From a virus: a stretch of DNA of 21,722 nt. The DNA lies in IMG/VR virus record IMGVR_UViG_3300030103_002572, positions 1-21,722 of that record; one strand, written 5' to 3'. Within the stretch, counting starts at the first letter, position 1, and the number at the start of each line of letters is the position of its first letter. A program made the translations under genes and the position numbers. Shown here piece after piece: positions 1,205 through 16,777 of the stretch. The notes under the pieces were generated by a model that was not told where the DNA came from, made no database searches, and worked only from the letters and a program-made list of their open reading frames with translations.

Positions 1205-2761
1205 ATGTCAGACTTAATAGTCAAGAATCTTAACTTTGGTGATCAAGCCAGAGATAATGTATTTAAAGGAATTGAAAAACTAACGCACGCTGTTAGCTCT
1301 ACACTCGGAGCTAGCGGCAAATGCGTTATGTTAGAAGATCATACTGGAAGACCAATAATAACTAAAGATGGTGTAACAGTCGCAGATTCAATAATCTTGC
1401 GAGATCCAGTAGAAAATATGGGTGCAACGCTTTTAAAAGAAGCAGCACGTAAAACTGTACAAGAAGCAGGCGATGGAACTACAACAGCTACAGTGTTAGC
1501 ACATGCTATACTACTCGAAGCTTATAAAGTAGTAGATAAAACAAACTCAAGAGAGTTAAAAGACGGTATTAACGAATCAGTTAAAAAAGTAGTTAAATAT
1601 TTAAAATCATTATCAGTTGATGTAAAAGGTCAAATGATAGATCAAATAGCTACAATATCGACTAACAACGAACCTGCACTTGGTAAAATAATAGCAGATG
1701 CTTTCAGAGCAGTTGACAACACAGGCGTTGTTATGATGGAAACCTCATCAGATGGTAAAACACATGTAGAGGTTGTTGATGGTGTTCAATATGAAAAAGG
1801 GCTAAAAAATTCTCATTTTATTACTAACAAAGTTAGTAAGACTGCAGAACTTGAAAAGCCACTTATATTATTATTAGAATCACCAGTAGATACTATCAGA
1901 CAAATACAGTCTGTGCTAGAGCACGTAATAAAAAACAATAAACCTTTGCTTATTATAGGCGATTTAGAACAAGGTGTTTTATCAGCTCTAGCTATGAATA
2001 AAACAAAAGGCAATATTAAAGTTAATGTAATTGACGCGCCTACGTATGGTATAAACAAACAGCAAATGTTACAAGATTTATCTATACTTACTGGCGCTAC
2101 TATTATAAATGAAGATTTAGGTGACGACATGAACATGATACAACCAGATCATTTGGGTACATGTTTAAAAAGCGTAACATCGCATGAAGACACAATATTG
2201 CAAATAAATGAAAGCACAGAAGAAGTTAATCAAGTTATACAAGATATAAAAGAAAAACTTTTAAAAGAAAAAAATCCTAACAAGCTTATTAAGCTTGAAA
2301 AAAGATTAGCAATGCTATCAGCTAAAATAGCTATTGTAAAAGTAGGTGCTAATTCAGAAATAGAATTAAAAGAAAAGACAGATAGAGTTGAAGACGCTAT
2401 CTGTGCTACTAAAGCTGCTATTAAAGAAGGGATTGTTCCTGGTGGTGGTATTGCTCTATTGAATGCTGCTACAAATATTAATGCTAAGTCTATTGGTGAA
2501 ACAGTTTTACTAGAAGCTATCAAGGCGCCTTATAAAACAATAATTGAAAATGCAGGTGTAAACAACGTAGAAACACCGAACAGAAAAGGACAAGGCTACA
2601 ATGTGGTTACAGGAAAAATGGTAAATATGATTAAGTCAGGTATTATAGATCCATTACTTGTCACCAAGAGCGCTCTTCAAAACGCAGCTTCTGTAGCAAC
2701 AACAATATTATCTACTGATTGTGTAATCAATAATTTAAGAATAGATGAAGGCAATAGGTAG
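1205..2761 (+). CDS. groEL: Phage-encoded GroEL-type (group I) chaperonin
   Basis: GroEL assembles into a double ring that folds proteins with ATP and a GroES lid. This 518-residue copy aligns along its whole length with bacterial GroEL (about 548 aa). It retains the nucleotide-site motifs TKDGVTVA (52-60, Asp55 equivalent to E. coli Asp52) and GDGTTTATVLA (89-99, Asp90 equivalent to Asp87), and Asp397 (equivalent to Asp398) before the GGG at 413-415. The apical substrate-binding helices are present around 226-262. Differences: TLGPKG reads TLGASG (33-38), the conserved Gly-Gly at the upper hinge reads Ala-Lys (373-374), the lower-hinge Pro is Asp139, and the Gly-Gly-Met tail is missing. It overlaps groES by 17 bases. 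It probably folds phage virion proteins, alone or in mixed use with host GroES. Confidence 0.96.
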   Translation: MSDLIVKNLNFGDQARDNVFKGIEKLTHAVSSTLGASGKCVMLEDHTGRPIITKDGVTVADSIILRDPVENMGATLLKEAARKTVQEAGDGTTTATVLAHAILLEAYKVVDKTNSRELKDGINESVKKVVKYLKSLSVDVKGQMIDQIATISTNNEPALGKIIADAFRAVDNTGVVMMETSSDGKTHVEVVDGVQYEKGLKNSHFITNKVSKTAELEKPLILLLESPVDTIRQIQSVLEHVIKNNKPLLIIGDLEQGVLSALAMNKTKGNIKVNVIDAPTYGINKQQMLQDLSILTGATIINEDLGDDMNMIQPDHLGTCLKSVTSHEDTILQINESTEEVNQVIQDIKEKLLKEKNPNKLIKLEKRLAMLSAKIAIVKVGANSEIELKEKTDRVEDAICATKAAIKEGIVPGGGIALLNAATNINAKSIGETVLLEAIKAPYKTIIENAGVNNVETPNRKGQGYNVVTGKMVNMIKSGIIDPLLVTKSALQNAASVATTILSTDCVINNLRIDEGNR

Positions 2762-3005
2762 AAACTTAATAATAAATAAAACAAAAGAAGGAACTACAAA
2801 AACAAAAGGTGGTTTGCTTCTTGCAGAAAAACAACGTGAAGATATAAGATATGTAAAAGCAGACGTAGTGTCTGTTGGAACAGAAGTAGTTGGTATTAAA
2901 AACAATGATATTATATACTTTGATCGTCACGCTGGTCATAAAATTGAAGTTGGTGATAATTCATATCACGTAATTAAATCTGCAGACGTCGTTGTTGTAG
3001 TATGA
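2745..3005 (+). CDS. groES: GroES-type co-chaperonin (Cpn10), 86 aa
   Basis: GroES caps the GroEL ring as a heptamer. The protein is slightly shorter than bacterial GroES (about 97 aa) but has its layout: a first strand with an Arg-Asn-Leu-Ile-Ile core (6-10), a mobile loop (about 13-32) carrying Gly-Gly-Leu-Leu-Leu (22-26) in place of the usual Gly-Gly-Ile-Val-Leu that docks in GroEL, the barrel strands with VVSVG (41-45), an IIYFDRHAG turn in place of the usual roof-loop region (56-64), and a closing Val-rich strand. The ATG at 2745 lies inside the end of groEL, so the two are translationally coupled; the order groEL then groES is opposite to most bacterial operons. It ends in an ATGA overlap with the next gene. 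Confidence 0.93.
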   Translation: MKAIGRNLIINKTKEGTTKTKGGLLLAEKQREDIRYVKADVVSVGTEVVGIKNNDIIYFDRHAGHKIEVGDNSYHVIKSADVVVVV

Positions 3006-3442
3006 GATTAGATGCTAGTGACATTAGAGAACTAAACCTAATGAAGCACTATCGCATCATAAGAAAGTGGGCTTGTAAAAACAACAATTTAAATGATGCA
3101 GATCTAGAACTTTTAATATATCTTGACTGTATAGATTTTTTTACTAAAAAAGATTTTGAAATGGGTGTATACTCATACAGCTGGGATAACCGCAGATGGA
3201 ACAGGCTGCTAAAAGAAGGTTGGATAGTTGTATGGAGACATAGAAACAGGTCCACTCAGAAATACCATATATATAAAGTATCTTTCAAAGGTAAGCAATT
3301 AATAAGTAGAATATACAGAATAATGCTAGGTGAAGAAGATATAAATACTGGTAGACGTAATAAAATAATTAATGGCGATACGTATACTGATAAAGTTATG
3401 ACAAAAGCCATTTATAACGTAAATAACGATAAAGATAGATAA
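3002..3442 (+). CDS. Predicted winged-helix DNA-binding protein, 146 aa
   Basis: The protein is basic and mostly helical, with a pattern that fits a MarR-like winged helix: helices at about 5-25 and 33-49, a possible recognition helix with an aromatic/Arg-rich segment (Ser-Trp-Asp-Asn-Arg-Arg-Trp at 60-66, then Leu-Leu-Lys-Glu-Gly-Trp), and a beta wing with Val-Val-Trp-Arg-His-Arg-Asn-Arg (75-82) leading to Tyr-His-Ile-Tyr-Lys-Val. I recall similar proteins in marine flavophages annotated as MarR-like, but no ligand or operator is known to me. The start overlaps the groES stop by four bases (ATGA), so it is made with the chaperonins. A transcriptional role is inference from the fold pattern; it could also be a structural or packaging helper with the same fold. 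Confidence 0.75.
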   Translation: MRLDASDIRELNLMKHYRIIRKWACKNNNLNDADLELLIYLDCIDFFTKKDFEMGVYSYSWDNRRWNRLLKEGWIVVWRHRNRSTQKYHIYKVSFKGKQLISRIYRIMLGEEDINTGRRNKIINGDTYTDKVMTKAIYNVNNDKDR

Positions 3443-5913: not shown

Positions 5914-6222
5914 ATGGCTTTTAAATTAAATAATCCTCCATATAAAATTGATAATACTCCAATATATCATGTAGATATGGAAGATGATGTTATGGGTAAA
6001 GCTAATAATAATGGAACAATTATTATAAATAAAAATGTTTGTCCTTCTAAAATAAAAGATGTTGTAAATCACGAAATGGTTCATATAGATCAAATGAAAC
6101 GTGGTGACTTAGATTATGACAATGATTATGTATACTGGAAAGGCAAAAAATATTCACGAGCTAAAATGGACGAAGGCAACGCCAAGTTACCATGGGAAGA
6201 TGAAGCTTATAAAAACGCATAA
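5914..6222 (+). CDS. Mini-protein with HExxH zinc-peptidase motif, 102 aa
   Basis: The sequence has His-Glu-Met-Val-His at 53-57 in a helix (Val-Val-Asn before, Ile-Asp-Gln after), the zinc-binding and catalytic motif of gluzincin-type metallopeptidases. A possible third ligand is a Glu in Pro-Trp-Glu-Asp-Glu-Ala-Tyr (93-99), the PxExEA arrangement seen in minimal HExxH domains. Strands before the helix (32-39) fit the edge-strand of that fold. The protein is short and has no signal peptide. In phages such proteins could act in virion maturation, lysis or as host-directed effectors, or be inactive. It sits in a run of small genes with 1-2 base gaps. Confidence 0.75.
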   Translation: MAFKLNNPPYKIDNTPIYHVDMEDDVMGKANNNGTIIINKNVCPSKIKDVVNHEMVHIDQMKRGDLDYDNDYVYWKGKKYSRAKMDEGNAKLPWEDEAYKNA

Positions 6223-6962: not shown

Positions 6963-6981
6963 AAACTGTTAAAACCATGTA

Positions 6982-7019
6982 ATAATATTAGTATACAATT
7001 AAATTAAATCTAATATTAT
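6982..7019 (+). promoter_or_regulatory. Leader with inverted repeat over start codon
   Basis: A 10-bp inverted repeat pairs 6982-6991 with 7010-7019, so the A and T of the ATG at 7018 would be in the stem. Its loop carries TATACAATT followed by AAATTAAAT (6992-7009), which is almost the same as the leader at 8133-8154. In DNA this AT-rich such repeats arise often by chance, so the hairpin is tentative. Confidence 0.3.
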
Positions 7020-8120: not shown

Positions 8121-8168
8121 GTATAGATAAACTATACAATTATAAATTAAATTAAATTAAATTAAATT
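8121..8168 (+). promoter_or_regulatory. GTATAG hairpin plus TAAAT tandem leader
   Basis: A perfect 6-bp stem (GTATAG 8121-8126 with CTATAC 8132-8137, loop of five bases) is followed by five tandem copies of TAAAT (8143-8167) running into the ATG at 8169. There is no Shine-Dalgarno site. The TATACAATT text at 8133-8141 recurs at 6992-7000. Confidence 0.55.
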
Positions 8169-8417
8169 ATGGCAAAAGCTAAAAAAATTACAAAAAAAGA
8201 ATTAGAAGAAGTAAAATCTACTAAACAAGAATTAGACAACGTTATTAATAACGTAGGTGTATTAGAAACTCAAAAACACTCTTTGTTACATAGAGTTGCT
8301 GAAATTAATGAAAAGCTTTCTAAAACTAAAGAAAAGCTTGAAGAAAAATATGGAAGCATAAACATTGATCTTGTTACAGGCGAGTACACTCAAATAGAAC
8401 AAGAAAATGCAGAATAA
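8169..8417 (+). CDS. Coiled-coil small protein, 82 aa
   Basis: Residues 1-62 are almost entirely charged helix: Lys-rich at 1-13, then a heptad-like pattern with Leu/Val/Ile at regular spacing (residues 23-60), predicting a coiled coil. The last 20 residues (from Tyr-Gly-Ser) are a short strand and tail. There is no Cys or Trp. Similar small coiled-coil proteins lie upstream of packaging genes in flavophages I recall, with no known function. It overlaps the next gene by 11 bases and follows a strong repeat leader, so it may be the first gene of the transcript running into terL. Confidence 0.75.
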   Translation: MAKAKKITKKELEEVKSTKQELDNVINNVGVLETQKHSLLHRVAEINEKLSKTKEKLEEKYGSINIDLVTGEYTQIEQENAE

Positions 8418-8634
8418 CATTAGAAAAATCAGTATTGGATCTGATTATAAAAATGACGCTATGCATTACTCTATTGGTCAATTAGTATACGGTGGTCATG
8501 AAATTTCTCATATACTTTTTAATGACTTAGATAATTCTTATAATATACATATAAAGAAAAACAACGAAGTATTGCCATGGAAAAAATTTAATTCTAACAT
8601 GGCTATTTCTGTTGAGTATGATTTAGAATATTAA
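8407..8634 (+). CDS. Small conserved-looking hypothetical protein, 75 aa
   Basis: The protein has a short amphipathic N-terminus (Arg6-Lys7-Ile-Ser-Ile-Gly-Ser-Asp-Tyr), then a beta-rich body with Ile-Gly-Gln-Leu-Val-Tyr-Gly-Gly and a Tyr-Asn-Ile-His-Ile-Lys-Lys strand (45-51), a Trp-Lys-Lys-Phe-Asn turn (58-62) and a closing Ile-Ser-Val-Glu-Tyr strand. I recall a similar protein in marine phage genomes without a function. The ATG at 8407 lies inside the end of the coiled-coil gene, and the stop overlaps the next start by one base. A small beta-barrel or OB-like fold is possible but not proven. Confidence 0.75.
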   Translation: MQNNIRKISIGSDYKNDAMHYSIGQLVYGGHEISHILFNDLDNSYNIHIKKNNEVLPWKKFNSNMAISVEYDLEY

Positions 8635-9260
8635 TGAAAAGTCTTTATGATTTTATCGTTGAACCAGTTGGCGATAAATACAGTAATACTGTTAATGTAG
8701 GTGATAAAAAATTAGTTGTAAATACTAAAATAGAAAACTGGAAGTTTGTTAATAGAGTTGCTAAAGTTATTGAAACACCAGCAGCTTTTTCTACGCCTAT
8801 TAAGAAAGGTGCTTTAATAATCATACATCAAAACGTATTTAGAACGTTTTATGATATGAGGGGTGAAAAGAAAAAAAGCAGATCTTATTTTAAAGAAGAT
8901 TATTATTTCTGCGCAATTGACCAAATTTATTTATATAAAAACAAAAACAATTGGAAGACTATAAATAATAGATGCTTTGTAACACCTATAAAAAGCAAAC
9001 AAGATCTAACGCTTGATAAAGAAGCAAGCCTTATTGGTATATTAAAATATGGTAATAGTTCATTAGAACAGCTTAATATCAACCCAGGTGATCTTGTAGG
9101 ATTTACTCCTAACAGCGAATGGGAGTTTTTAGTCGATAATAAACGACTTTATTGTATGAAATCAAATGATATTGTAATTAAGTATGAATACCAAGGAGAC
9201 GAAGAAGAATATAATCCAAGCTGGGCAGAAAGCAGTAGAGGAATTAATCAAAGTAGCTAA
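8634..9260 (+). CDS. Tandem Cpn10-fold (GroES-like) protein, 208 aa
   Basis: The protein appears to consist of two GroES-like barrels in a row. Domain 1 (about 2-101): a Leu-Tyr-Asp-Phe-Ile-Val-Glu-Pro start in place of the GroES first strand, a loop (13-36) where the mobile loop would be, Arg-Val-Ala-Lys-Val-Ile-Glu-Thr, then Ile-Lys-Lys-Gly-Ala-Leu-Ile-Ile-Ile-His and Tyr-Phe-Cys-Ala-Ile-Asp-Gln-Ile-Tyr-Leu. Domain 2 (about 112-184) repeats the order: Cys-Phe-Val-Thr-Pro-Ile, Ile-Gly-Ile-Leu-Lys-Tyr-Gly, Asn-Pro-Gly-Asp-Leu-Val-Gly-Phe, and Leu-Tyr-Cys-Met-Lys-Ser-Asn-Asp-Ile-Val-Ile-Lys. Neither has the Gly-Gly-hydrophobic docking tripeptide. The last 25 residues overlap the next gene. It could be a second co-chaperonin for capsid protein or a virion component with the fold; the fold is inferred by eye. 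Confidence 0.8.
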   Translation: MKSLYDFIVEPVGDKYSNTVNVGDKKLVVNTKIENWKFVNRVAKVIETPAAFSTPIKKGALIIIHQNVFRTFYDMRGEKKKSRSYFKEDYYFCAIDQIYLYKNKNNWKTINNRCFVTPIKSKQDLTLDKEASLIGILKYGNSSLEQLNINPGDLVGFTPNSEWEFLVDNKRLYCMKSNDIVIKYEYQGDEEEYNPSWAESSRGINQSS

Positions 9261-9459
9261 AGAAGCTATTGTTGATTCAGACGATGATATATCAGCTGAT
9301 AGACTTAAAAATGCTGCGGCTACAAAAAAGCTTGCTATATTTGATGCTTTTGAAATACTTAGCCGCATCGAAGAAGAAGAAAACTTATTAAACGAAAAAC
9401 CAAAAGAAGTTAAAGAAGAAAGAGCTTTTAAAGGTTTTGCAGAAGGTAGATCTAAGTAA
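9184..9459 (+). CDS. Candidate small terminase subunit, 91 aa
   Basis: The protein is predicted all-helical: a Lys/Ala/Glu helix (1-30), an acidic turn with Asp-Ser-Asp-Asp-Asp, an Ala-rich helix (41-62, with Leu-Lys-Asn-Ala-Ala-Ala-Thr-Lys-Lys) and a charged C-terminal tail. Small terminase subunits usually sit just before the large one and are helical DNA-binding ring proteins; position and shape are the only support here, and no clear helix-turn-helix is visible. The ATG at 9184 overlaps the preceding gene by 77 bases, long for this genome, but no later Met keeps the first helix. The stop codon overlaps the terL start by one base. Confidence 0.65.
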   Translation: MNTKETKKNIIQAGQKAVEELIKVAKEAIVDSDDDISADRLKNAAATKKLAIFDAFEILSRIEEEENLLNEKPKEVKEERAFKGFAEGRSK

Positions 9460-11669
9460 TGTACGAGCAAAGTTTATATAAAGTTTTAAAAGACCATATT
9501 AAACCTAAAATTCTTAAACGAATGAATAGGTATAGTAAATGGGAATATGGGTATAATAAAGAACACGATATTATTGTTATAAGTAAGACAGGCAAAATAG
9601 GCGAAATATATGAAATACAAAACCTAAAAATAGCCTTACCTGTAGAAAACAAAATACACAAGTTTGAAACAAATACTTGGGAACACACTGAATATCCAAA
9701 AGTATTAAAAAAAATAAAGTCTGTTTTTGACTGGGAACAATACCCGTTAGACTTCAAAGAAAAATGGTATGATTACATCGATAATGAGTTCGTCCGCAGG
9801 GAAGAAGGCTTTTGGTTCTATAATAAGGATGTGGCTACTTACATTACTGGTACTCACTATATGTACTTGCAGTGGTCCAAGATTGATGTTGGGCAACCAG
9901 ATTTTAGGGAATCAAACAGATTATTCTACATATTCTGGGAAGCTTGCAAGGCCGACCATAGATCATATGGGATGTGCTATCTTAAGAACAGACGTTCTGG
10001 GTTTTCCTTTATGGCGTCCGGGGAGTGTGTTAATATGGCAACCATATCAAGCGATTCTAGGTTTGGAATATTATCAAAATCTGGTCCTGATGCAAAGAAG
10101 ATGTTTACAGACAAGGTGGTACCGATATCAGTTAACTACCCCTTCTTTTTCAAACCAATTCAAGACGGAATGGACAGGCCAAAGACAGAGCTTGCGTATA
10201 GAGTACCCGCAACAAAATACACGCGTAAGAAACTTGAAACAAACGCACAATTACAAGAGATCGATGGGCTCGACACCACGATCGACTGGAAAAACACGGG
10301 CGACAACTCGTATGACGGTGAAAAGCTCAAACTCCTCGTCCACGATGAAAGCGGCAAGTGGGAGCGTCCGACGAACATCCTCAACAACTGGAGGGTTACG
10401 AAAACCTGCTTACGATTAGGTAGTAGAATTATAGGTAAATGCATGATGGGTTCAACTAGTAACTCATTAGACAAAGGCGGCGACAACTTTAAAAAACTAT
10501 ATAATGACTCAGATGTTACACAACGAAACGCGAATGGACAAACTCGCTCTGGATTATATAGCTTGTTCATACCTATGGAATGGAATTACGAAGGATATAT
10601 TGATTCTTATGGCATACCTGTCTTCCAAACACCAGACGAACCTGTTAAAGGACCACAAGGTGAAATTATAGATTTAGGTGTAATAGAATATTGGGATAAC
10701 GAAGTTGCTGGATTGAAGCAAGATCAAGACGCTTTAAATGAGTTTTATAGACAATTTCCTAGAACAGAGAAGCACGCGTTTAGAGACGAATCAAAAGAAT
10801 CTTTGTTTAATTTAACTAAAATTTACGAACAAATAGATTTTAACGAAGACATGCGTAATTCTATAAATATTACTCAAGGTAGTTTTCAGTGGCAAAACGC
10901 AGAAAAAGACACAAACGTTATATTTGTTCCAAATAAAAACGGTAGATTTAAAATAAGTTGGGTGCCGCCGTCTCATATACAAAATAAAAGATATAAAAAA
11001 AATAACACATATTATCCAGGTAATGATTTTATGGGTGCTTTTGGATGTGATCCATATGATATATCAGGAACTGTAGATAAAAGAGGTTCAAAAGGATCTT
11101 TACACGGCTTAACAAAGTTTTGTATGGAAGATGTGCCTCCTAATCATTTTTTTCTAGAATATATAGCTAGACCACAAACAGCTGAAATATTTTTTGAAGA
11201 TGTTTTAATGGCTTGCGTTTTTTATGGTATGCCAATATTAATTGAAAACAACAAACCTAGGCTTTTATATTATTTAAAAAAACGTGGTTATAGAGGTTTT
11301 TCTATGAATAGGCCAGATAGAAAATATAATAAATTATCTATAACTGAAAGAGAATTAGGTGGAATACCAAACTCTAGTGAAGATATTAAACAAGCGCATG
11401 CTTCAGCTATAGAAACATATATAGAAACATTTGTAGGTTTAAAAGAAACTGGATACGGAGATATGTATTTTCAAAAAACACTAGAAGATTGGGCTAAATT
11501 TAATATTAATAATAGAACAAAGCACGATGCTTCTATTAGTTCTGGACTAGCTTTAATGGCTTGTAATAAACATAGATATTCGCCTGTAAACAAAATTAAA
11601 CTAGAGCCTGTTGATCTTGGTATAAAAAGATACGACAATAGAGGAACTACATCAAAAATAATAAGTTAA
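9459..11669 (+). CDS. terL: Terminase large subunit
   Basis: TerL pumps DNA into the prohead with its ATPase and cuts it with its nuclease. The 736-residue protein has a deviant Walker A, Lys-Asn-Arg-Arg-Ser-Gly-Phe-Ser (176-183), a Walker B strand Leu-Leu-Val-His-Asp-Glu-Ser (292-298, Asp296/Glu297), and the coupling motif Gly-Ser-Thr-Ser-Asn (331-335). The RNase-H-like nuclease acids are Asp531 (Phe-Gly-Cys-Asp-Pro-Tyr-Asp), Glu596 (Ile-Leu-Ile-Glu-Asn-Asn) and Asp690 (Lys-His-Asp-Ala-Ser). Bases 9780-10410 (residues 108-317) are clearly GC-richer than the rest of the gene, peaking near 56% at 10261-10380, while the reading frame is intact. The start overlaps the previous stop and the stop overlaps the portal start. 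Confidence 0.95.
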   Translation: MYEQSLYKVLKDHIKPKILKRMNRYSKWEYGYNKEHDIIVISKTGKIGEIYEIQNLKIALPVENKIHKFETNTWEHTEYPKVLKKIKSVFDWEQYPLDFKEKWYDYIDNEFVRREEGFWFYNKDVATYITGTHYMYLQWSKIDVGQPDFRESNRLFYIFWEACKADHRSYGMCYLKNRRSGFSFMASGECVNMATISSDSRFGILSKSGPDAKKMFTDKVVPISVNYPFFFKPIQDGMDRPKTELAYRVPATKYTRKKLETNAQLQEIDGLDTTIDWKNTGDNSYDGEKLKLLVHDESGKWERPTNILNNWRVTKTCLRLGSRIIGKCMMGSTSNSLDKGGDNFKKLYNDSDVTQRNANGQTRSGLYSLFIPMEWNYEGYIDSYGIPVFQTPDEPVKGPQGEIIDLGVIEYWDNEVAGLKQDQDALNEFYRQFPRTEKHAFRDESKESLFNLTKIYEQIDFNEDMRNSINITQGSFQWQNAEKDTNVIFVPNKNGRFKISWVPPSHIQNKRYKKNNTYYPGNDFMGAFGCDPYDISGTVDKRGSKGSLHGLTKFCMEDVPPNHFFLEYIARPQTAEIFFEDVLMACVFYGMPILIENNKPRLLYYLKKRGYRGFSMNRPDRKYNKLSITERELGGIPNSSEDIKQAHASAIETYIETFVGLKETGYGDMYFQKTLEDWAKFNINNRTKHDASISSGLALMACNKHRYSPVNKIKLEPVDLGIKRYDNRGTTSKIIS

Positions 11670-15319: not shown

Positions 15320-16777
15320 ATGAGTTTAACTCCTCAATTTGGTAGTATTATTCCATCTCAAACACAAGAGATTTTAAATAGTAACTACTTAAAATTTAAT
15401 GACGGTGGTGCTGGAAACACTGACACATTTGCTCAGCAGTATTTACCTGAAATTTATGAACAAGAAGTAGAGCGTTATGGAAACAGAACGTTATCTGGAT
15501 TCTTACGAATGGTTGGCGCTGAAATGCCAATGACATCTGATCAAGTAATTTGGTCTGAGCAAAACAGATTACACATTGCCTATGACGGCTGTTCTGCCAC
15601 TGCTGGTGGTGCTGGTGCAGCTCCTGCTAATGGTAACGTTGTTACTATACCAGCAGGTGTAGATAATGTTATTTCTGTAAATGATACTGTAGTTGTTTTA
15701 GATACTGTAACAGGTGGTGAAGCAAAGTGTCTTGTAACTGCTTCTGCTGTAGGCGCTGGTCCTAAGGCTATTACTGTAGAGCCTTTTAATAATCTTGCAT
15801 TAGAAAACGCTGCAAATGGATGTACTACTGGTGCAACTCAATTGAAAGTATTTGTATACGGTTCTGCTTATGAAAAAGGTGTAGAAATGACAGGTGGTAA
15901 TTCTAGAGTTTCTGTAGAACCACAGTTTACACAATTTTCAAACACTCCAATTATTATTAGAAGCCAATACGTAGTTAATGGTTCTGATATGGCTCAAATT
16001 GGTTGGGTTGAAGTTGCTACTGAAGACGGAACATCTGGATATTTATGGTACTTAAAAGCTGAGTCTGAAACAAGACTACGTTTTGAAGATTACTTAGAAA
16101 TGTCTATGGTAGAAGGTGAGAAAAACGCAGGCATAAACGCTGTAACAACTGCAAAACTAGCTGGAACTGAAGGTTTATTTGCTGCTATTGAAGATAGAGG
16201 TAATGTACAAGTAGGATTTACTGCTGCTGCTGGAATAGATGACTTTGATGGTATTTTGAAAAATTTAGATACTCAAGGTGCAATTGAAGAAAACATGTTA
16301 TTTTTACAAAGACAAACTGCTTTGGATTTTGACGACATGTTAGCTGCAATTTCTGGTGGCGCTGCTGGAGGTACTGCATTTGGATTATTTGAAAACTCAG
16401 AAGAAATGGCATTAAACTTAGGGTTTAGCGGTTTCAGAAGAGGATCTTATGATTTCTACAAAACTGATTGGAAATACTTAAATGATGCTTCAACTCGTGG
16501 CGCTATCAGTGGAATTAATTCTATTGAAGGTGTATTAATACCTGCTGGAACATCAACTGTATACGATCAAGTATTAGGAACTAACATCCGTAGACCTTTC
16601 TTACATGTACGTTATAGAGCTTCACAAGCTGACGACAGAAGAATGAAGTCTTGGTTAACTGGTTCTGCTGGTGGTGCATTTACATCTACATTGGATGCTA
16701 TGGAAGTAAACTTCCTATCTGAAAGATGTTTAGTAACACAAGCTGCTAATAACTTTGTATTATTCAAAGGAGTGTAA
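15320..16777 (+). CDS. Major capsid protein
   Basis: The 485-residue protein follows the scaffold candidate and precedes a strong terminator, as expected for the most abundant virion protein. It is rich in Gly, Ala, Thr and Asn with a balanced alpha/beta pattern compatible with the HK97 fold: an N-terminal arm (1-60), a Thr/Val/Gly-rich insertion (95-190) resembling an inserted or E-loop domain, a long helix region with Glu-Ser-Glu-Thr-Arg-Leu-Arg-Phe-Glu-Asp-Tyr-Leu-Glu-Met (248-261) as spine helix candidate, and a closing strand Glu-Arg-Cys-Leu-Val-Thr-Gln-Ala-Ala-Asn-Asn-Phe-Val-Leu-Phe, which I recall at the end of many marine phage capsid proteins. No maturation protease gene lies nearby, so cleavage cannot be judged. 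Confidence 0.87.
   Translation: MSLTPQFGSIIPSQTQEILNSNYLKFNDGGAGNTDTFAQQYLPEIYEQEVERYGNRTLSGFLRMVGAEMPMTSDQVIWSEQNRLHIAYDGCSATAGGAGAAPANGNVVTIPAGVDNVISVNDTVVVLDTVTGGEAKCLVTASAVGAGPKAITVEPFNNLALENAANGCTTGATQLKVFVYGSAYEKGVEMTGGNSRVSVEPQFTQFSNTPIIIRSQYVVNGSDMAQIGWVEVATEDGTSGYLWYLKAESETRLRFEDYLEMSMVEGEKNAGINAVTTAKLAGTEGLFAAIEDRGNVQVGFTAAAGIDDFDGILKNLDTQGAIEENMLFLQRQTALDFDDMLAAISGGAAGGTAFGLFENSEEMALNLGFSGFRRGSYDFYKTDWKYLNDASTRGAISGINSIEGVLIPAGTSTVYDQVLGTNIRRPFLHVRYRASQADDRRMKSWLTGSAGGAFTSTLDAMEVNFLSERCLVTQAANNFVLFKGV

Follow-up and report, generated by a model that had tools for sequence, protein, structure and literature searches.

Bacteriophage T4 gp31 has the GroEL of its host as its partner. 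It is a roofless phage co-chaperonin whose cage, more open and larger, is believed to be suited to the 56-kDa capsid protein (PMC6318259). The chaperonins of bacteriophages EL and OBP reportedly have no need for a co-chaperonin (PMC5934643), and chloroplasts assemble Cpn20 and Cpn10 into mixed seven-domain rings (PMC5780408). With respect to marine viruses, gene order in the virioplankton has been tied to GroEL phylogeny (Marine et al. 2017, ISME J, doi 10.1038/ismej.2017.102, as cited in PMC9611531). Marine phage chaperonins are common, and their lids, clients and control have been little studied.

The DNA analysed here (the window, by which the whole stretch is meant) is a virus record of 21,722 bases whose terminase, portal and capsid are assigned to head and packaging PHROGs. 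Since the phages with a related terminase have flavobacterial hosts throughout, or a host that is not named, the host of this virus is probably a flavobacterium. One of the late genes, at 5914-6222, encodes a small protein that weakly resembles metalloproteases (SprT/M76, below the cut-offs). The features on which the analysis is centred are the following.

1179 to 1203, + strand: 5-base tandem repeat leader (TATAA TATAA TTTAA TCTAA TCTAA), just before the start of groEL
1205 to 2761, + strand: groEL, group I chaperonin of 518 aa (Pfam Cpn60_TCP1, 7.7e-59; PHROG 5725, 3e-133)
2745 to 3005, + strand: groES, single-domain co-chaperonin of 86 aa (Pfam Cpn10, 7.5e-12), starting within groEL
3002 to 3442, + strand: predicted winged-helix gene, 146 aa, pI 9.7 (AlphaFold2 pLDDT 92.9), joined to groES by an ATGA overlap
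8634 to 9260, + strand: predicted tandem-Cpn10 (Cpn20-like) gene, 208 aa (PHROG 13932), two genes upstream of terL
9459 to 11669, + strand: terL, terminase large subunit (PHROG 6681, 2e-162), the landmark beside the tandem co-chaperonin and the control for phylogeny

The explanation that we favour, with moderate confidence, is that GroEL and its lid or lids, all of them owned by the phage, fold virion proteins, and that the winged helix is a separate regulator of the late module. What the analysis shows directly are the genes and their overlaps, the predicted folds, the catalytic residues, the conserved order and the covariation; the clients, the composition of the lid, the DNA target and the regulatory role are the parts of it that we infer.

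The overlaps of 17 bases between groEL and groES and of 4 bases between groES and the third gene, reported in the first-pass annotation, were both confirmed. Among 149 distinct loci with the three genes on the same strand, the second overlap measured 4 bases in 135 loci and a single base in another 5; that of groEL with groES was 17, 20, 23, 26 or 4 bases in every such locus measured. As the same few lengths recur over so many distinct loci, the overlaps are not due to chance. Comparison with ten relatives gave dN/dS values of about 0.10 for groEL, 0.19 for groES and 0.04 for the third gene, which is under the strongest constraint of the three; therefore, all three genes are real and constrained. 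The pair groEL-groES would then represent a group I chaperonin with its lid, both belonging to the phage and translated as a coupled pair. It must be noted that groEL lies in two frames in seven contigs (L029, L053, L072, L134, L156, L251 and L258), as does the third gene in L088, and these split frames reflect either sequencing error or a real interruption.

Viral contigs were searched with the third protein and with GroEL, yielding 545 and 176 confirmed relatives, respectively, of which the best 80 each were kept, and three isolate homologues, together with an alignment, gave access to the more distant members. Iterated HMMs applied to 260 sequences, the window included, detected the third gene in 259, GroES in 250 and GroEL in 247. 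The distinct loci comprised the 149 with all genes on the same strand, 67 in which the third gene lies 3' of groES but on the other strand, and nine with the third gene only, two of these being Cellulophaga genomes with groEL elsewhere and the rest pieces of 3.7-6.5 kb; as the loci were gathered by matching these very genes, such counts are not population frequencies. In the opposite-strand loci the 3' ends of groES and the third gene overlap, most commonly by 35 bases (28 loci), and in nine same-strand loci an insert of 0.1-2.2 kb separates the two genes. A third arrangement was observed in L284, where the winged-helix homologue is divergent and upstream of groEL. The set fetched with GroEL, which served as an independent check, had the third gene downstream of groES wherever the contig extended that far. 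A full chaperonin pair with a coupled regulator had been regarded as uncommon, and the hundreds of viral contigs with this layout do not bear that out. Nor is joint translation of the three genes a fixed feature, given the opposite-strand third gene of the sister clade and the nine loci with inserts. The idea that the three are kept as a unit holds for their order, which is conserved over very divergent phages, but not for the fixed overlap. In short, the observation itself is correct, and the layout is a widespread and partly known arrangement.

In the GroEL tree, rooted with Bacteroidota and Salmonella GroEL, the phages of the group form one virus-only clade (SH-aLRT 98) apart from Bacteroidota GroEL, and within it each orientation class occupies one side of a branch (same-strand 99, opposite-strand 81). 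The cellular loci fetched run groES then groEL and the phages groEL then groES, so that the reversal noted in the first-pass annotation is upheld; from the tree and these cellular loci, the groEL-first order is a property of the viral clade, which agrees with the connection of order and phylogeny already reported for the virioplankton. A common history of groEL and groES is likewise supported by their pairwise divergences, which covary (partial rho 0.58 given terL).

That common descent alone explains the order, the three genes occupying a common position at the border of the late module with a functional link only between groEL and groES, is a minority reading, although the best placed of the alternatives. 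A single deep rearrangement suffices for it, since each orientation class lies on one side of a branch, and relative order is also kept by several late genes. However, among 34 representatives the only near-universal families were these three; the flanks vary by lineage, and the immediate neighbours are replaced while the three genes remain. Additionally, in the elemoviruses the block is inverted relative to the late genes with its internal arrangement unchanged.

With regard to the chaperonin itself, the Pfam Cpn60 domain spans residues 26-509 of 518 in the phage GroEL, and the residues for ATP/Mg binding and catalysis are kept (K51, D52, D87, T89-91, D398, G414-416 and D495 in E. coli numbering), apart from small changes at P33, A480 and A481. 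The apical groove is altered (Y199L, Y203H, L234Q, V263A and V264M), as are the inter-ring contacts (R452K, E461N, S463V and V464E), and the GGM tail is absent from all group members aligned. Because the inter-ring residues differ, a single ring is possible for the phage GroEL. The GroES of the window has a Cpn10 domain and the hydrophobic tripeptide of the mobile loop (GGLLL), a loop that is mostly retained in the group, and about nine residues are missing at the roof in all GroES proteins aligned, which leaves them without the roof hairpin. From these alignments the folding chamber may be larger and perhaps built of a single ring, with a lid matched to it. In the explanation we favour, the clients would be proteins of the phage particle, the capsid protein encoded at 15320-16777 being the probable one; the roofless lid, as in T4 gp31, and the GroEL devoid of a C-terminal tail would be adaptations to large clients, and GroEL and GroES would have drifted from the host versions at the groove where both meet.

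The block had been described as a complete cassette, which overlooks the second co-chaperonin gene at 8634-9260. Its 208-aa product matches PHROG 13932 (co-chaperonin GroES) over its full length (8.4e-26), and Pfam gave a sub-threshold Cpn10 match in the C-terminal half. The AlphaFold2 model (pLDDT 85.9) retrieved by Foldseek, at full length, 7ekq_R and 7ekq_Q as top matches, followed by many single GroES chains; the match to 7ekq_R, titled as a Cpn20 co-chaperonin subunit in the PDB sequence records, had an E value of 3.2e-5 over 204 columns. The GroES profile matches the C-terminal half in 61 of 75 homologues, HHalign gave 7e-6, and for the N-terminal half the Cpn10 support comes from structure and PHROG. 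The protein is thus modelled as two Cpn10 domains head to tail. No plastid Cpn20 was found among its PDB sequence matches. The family was matched in 47 of the 47 group records tested, in a frame mostly of 184-234 aa that is broken in G005; in the same test the 43-kb fragment G033 showed the small GroES alone. Among isolates, the gene is present in the elemoviruses, Callevirus, Panino, MW202828 and phi19:3. Single records already label it 'co-chaperonin GroES', and a partial literature search found no paper on a tandem phage co-chaperonin.

We consider it rather improbable that the tandem protein is a structural or packaging protein with a borrowed Cpn10 barrel instead of a co-chaperonin. In 77 of 82 loci its gene precedes terL by about 200 bases, the gene is present in phi19:3, which has no phage groEL, and the N-terminal half of the protein is barely recognisable by sequence, all of which would suit such a role. 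Nevertheless, although the gene stands beside terL and 3-6 kb from groES, its product covaries more with GroES than with the adjacent terL: the correlation of groES and tandem-gene distances (rho 0.78) is 0.72 given terL (0.61-0.77), the highest of all pairs tested, and two genes lying between them correlate weakly with groES (0.14 and 0.28). The fold match to Cpn20-type chains also extends over the full length, and in phi19:3 the protein could work with the host GroEL, like T4 gp31. The tandem protein would fit as a second co-chaperonin of the same machine. A lid composed of the single GroES and the tandem co-chaperonin, on a phage-owned and possibly single-ring GroEL, is put forward tentatively, as a proposal that stands at somewhat worse than even; one single and three doubles, for example, would give seven domains, in a design that so far is known from chloroplasts.

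The control regions differ between the two orientation classes. Of 104 distinct same-strand loci, 94 have the leader repeat (W-N-W-A-A, 4-7 units) before groEL, the mean in dinucleotide shuffles of the window being 0.22 matches per strand. A second 5-base repeat leader of this pattern was observed at 8141-8165, and such a leader often stands before the small coiled-coil gene at 8169. The motif TAnnTTTG, which we take to be the Bacteroidota -7 promoter element, was found before groEL in 43 of 54 opposite-strand loci (L170-L255), nearly always at 20-40 bases, vs. 2 of 100 same-strand loci. In the latter class GTAATRATA looks like a phage-specific promoter element, with a bias to the late strand (133 vs. 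16) and a position mostly 20-70 bases before gene starts. It is found at 6979-6987 in the window, and its placement pattern is absent from the sister clade. From this split between TAnnTTTG and the repeat leader or GTAATRATA, groEL appears to be expressed from different promoters in the two classes, it being understood that the counts for these regions overstate the number of events because related sequences are not independent. The k-mer search for an operator upstream of groEL gave promoter-like and leader motifs only, with no shared palindrome, and the Sigma-70 scan was near shuffle level.

The winged-helix fold predicted for the third protein was upheld by AlphaFold2, whose model (mean pLDDT 92.9) consists of helices and wing strands. 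The protein belongs to PHROG 17028, of unknown function, and received no Pfam or NCBIfam assignment. The leading PDB matches in Foldseek were MarR-family proteins (best E value 5.5e-3, TM about 0.45), PDB profiles gave weak MarR hints (E values of 0.04-0.6), and the NCBIfam model TcaR reached at best 0.003 in 6 of 81 members, the window protein not being among these. A MarR assignment by sequence was not sustained, there being no significant match; a MarR-like winged helix is confidently predicted from the model, and MarR membership is not provable. Conserved basic and aromatic residues map to the predicted recognition helix and wing. A cellular origin was also considered and discarded: the 19 genome-collection matches are all MAG contigs, and they are probably viral contigs in bins, since nearly all carry the same viral gene block.

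The first-pass annotation had suggested that this protein may regulate, or be functionally tied to, the chaperonins. A dedicated regulator of the chaperonin operon, acting by autoregulation, is unlikely in our opinion. In two orientation clades the winged-helix gene adjoins groES, the distance hardly ever exceeding a few kb, the trio persists while neighbouring genes change, and the host-type TAnnTTTG element that groEL has of its own in the convergent loci is a possible regulator target. Nevertheless, in Cellulophaga phage phi19:3, in which no groEL was found and where the host GroEL is presumably used for this reason, the winged-helix homologue (1.2e-16) immediately precedes the structural module, and on its other side, at a distance of one gene, is a groES-family gene that is annotated groES. 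In phi38:1 the gene lies about 38 kb from the groES-groEL pair and beside structural genes, and in Calle_1 it is likewise far from groEL. Additionally, covariation of groES and the winged helix does not exceed phage phylogeny (partial rho given terL 0.11, bootstrap 5-95% -0.04 to 0.27), the value for groEL and the winged helix being 0.38. In phi19:3 (L300 and L301; gp082, gp084 and gp101) we also observed a small GroES, a winged helix and a tandem co-chaperonin occurring together without groEL.

The placement in phi19:3 and phi38:1 and the lack of covariation with groES given terL favour a regulator encoded at the border of the late module; that the third gene regulates the chaperonins specifically is improbable, and control of the adjoining late module by its product is the likelier role. 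As a separately conserved DNA-binding regulator, it would control late transcription, the chaperonin genes included when they are in the same transcript. In the convergent loci, genes 5' of the winged-helix gene mostly run in the opposite direction (323 of 437), which fits a divergent regulator, and the protein itself is basic (pI 9.7). A link to groES itself is possible, as the adjacency is very persistent and groES is one gene away even in phi19:3. That the third protein is instead a winged helix outside transcription, such as an RNA-binding, packaging or assembly factor, is also improbable, for although its gene stands beside structural genes in all lineages, its MarR match is marginal and the operator search was negative, the conserved residues of the predicted recognition helix and wing, basic and aromatic, fit DNA binding.

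The tandem co-chaperonin in particular deserves further work, as do the winged-helix family and the adjacency of the three genes. The cultured relatives (Flavobacterium elemoviruses, phi38:1, phi19:3 and Panino) make the GroEL, the roofless GroES and the tandem lid testable. If the lids mix, lid mixing of the chloroplast type would have arisen independently in viruses, and late-gene control in Bacteroidota phages has a highly conserved candidate in the winged-helix gene.

Several cultured phages share most of the elements described. The elemoviruses (Flavobacterium phages, NC_062741) have, like the window, groEL then groES, a tandem co-chaperonin adjoining terL and an adjacent winged helix, but their winged-helix gene is on the opposite strand and encodes 230 aa, and their block is inverted with respect to the late genes. 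Podoviridae sp. ctfjg026 (MW202828) and Maribacter phage Panino also carry groEL, groES and the winged helix, with the tandem gene near terL; unlike the window, the winged-helix gene is convergent with groES in both, the 3' ends overlapping by 35 bases in MW202828 and lying about 1 kb apart in Panino. Cellulophaga phages phi38:1 (Callevirus) and phi19:3 (Baltivirus) have homologues of the winged helix and of the tandem co-chaperonin, but phi38:1 has the order groES-groEL, in the replication module, and phi19:3 is devoid of groEL.

The GroEL and GroES of the virioplankton (Marine et al. 2017) are likewise marine viral group I chaperonins whose gene order is tied to phylogeny; the part of the citing text that deals with that work mentions neither a winged-helix partner, nor orientation classes, nor a tandem co-chaperonin. 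The chaperonins of the EL, OBP and PBS1 type are GroEL-like and phage-encoded, as here, but far more divergent (21-27% identity over partial length). In chloroplasts, as in the window, tandem Cpn10 domains coexist with a single-domain Cpn10, and Cpn20-type chains (7ekq) are the best fold match of the viral tandem protein; however, the two have no significant sequence similarity, and a mixed oligomer in the virus is a proposal only. T4 gp31 resembles the GroES of the window in being devoid of roof loops, but it uses the host GroEL, whereas the phage studied here brings its own GroEL, with groove residues unlike those of the host GroEL.
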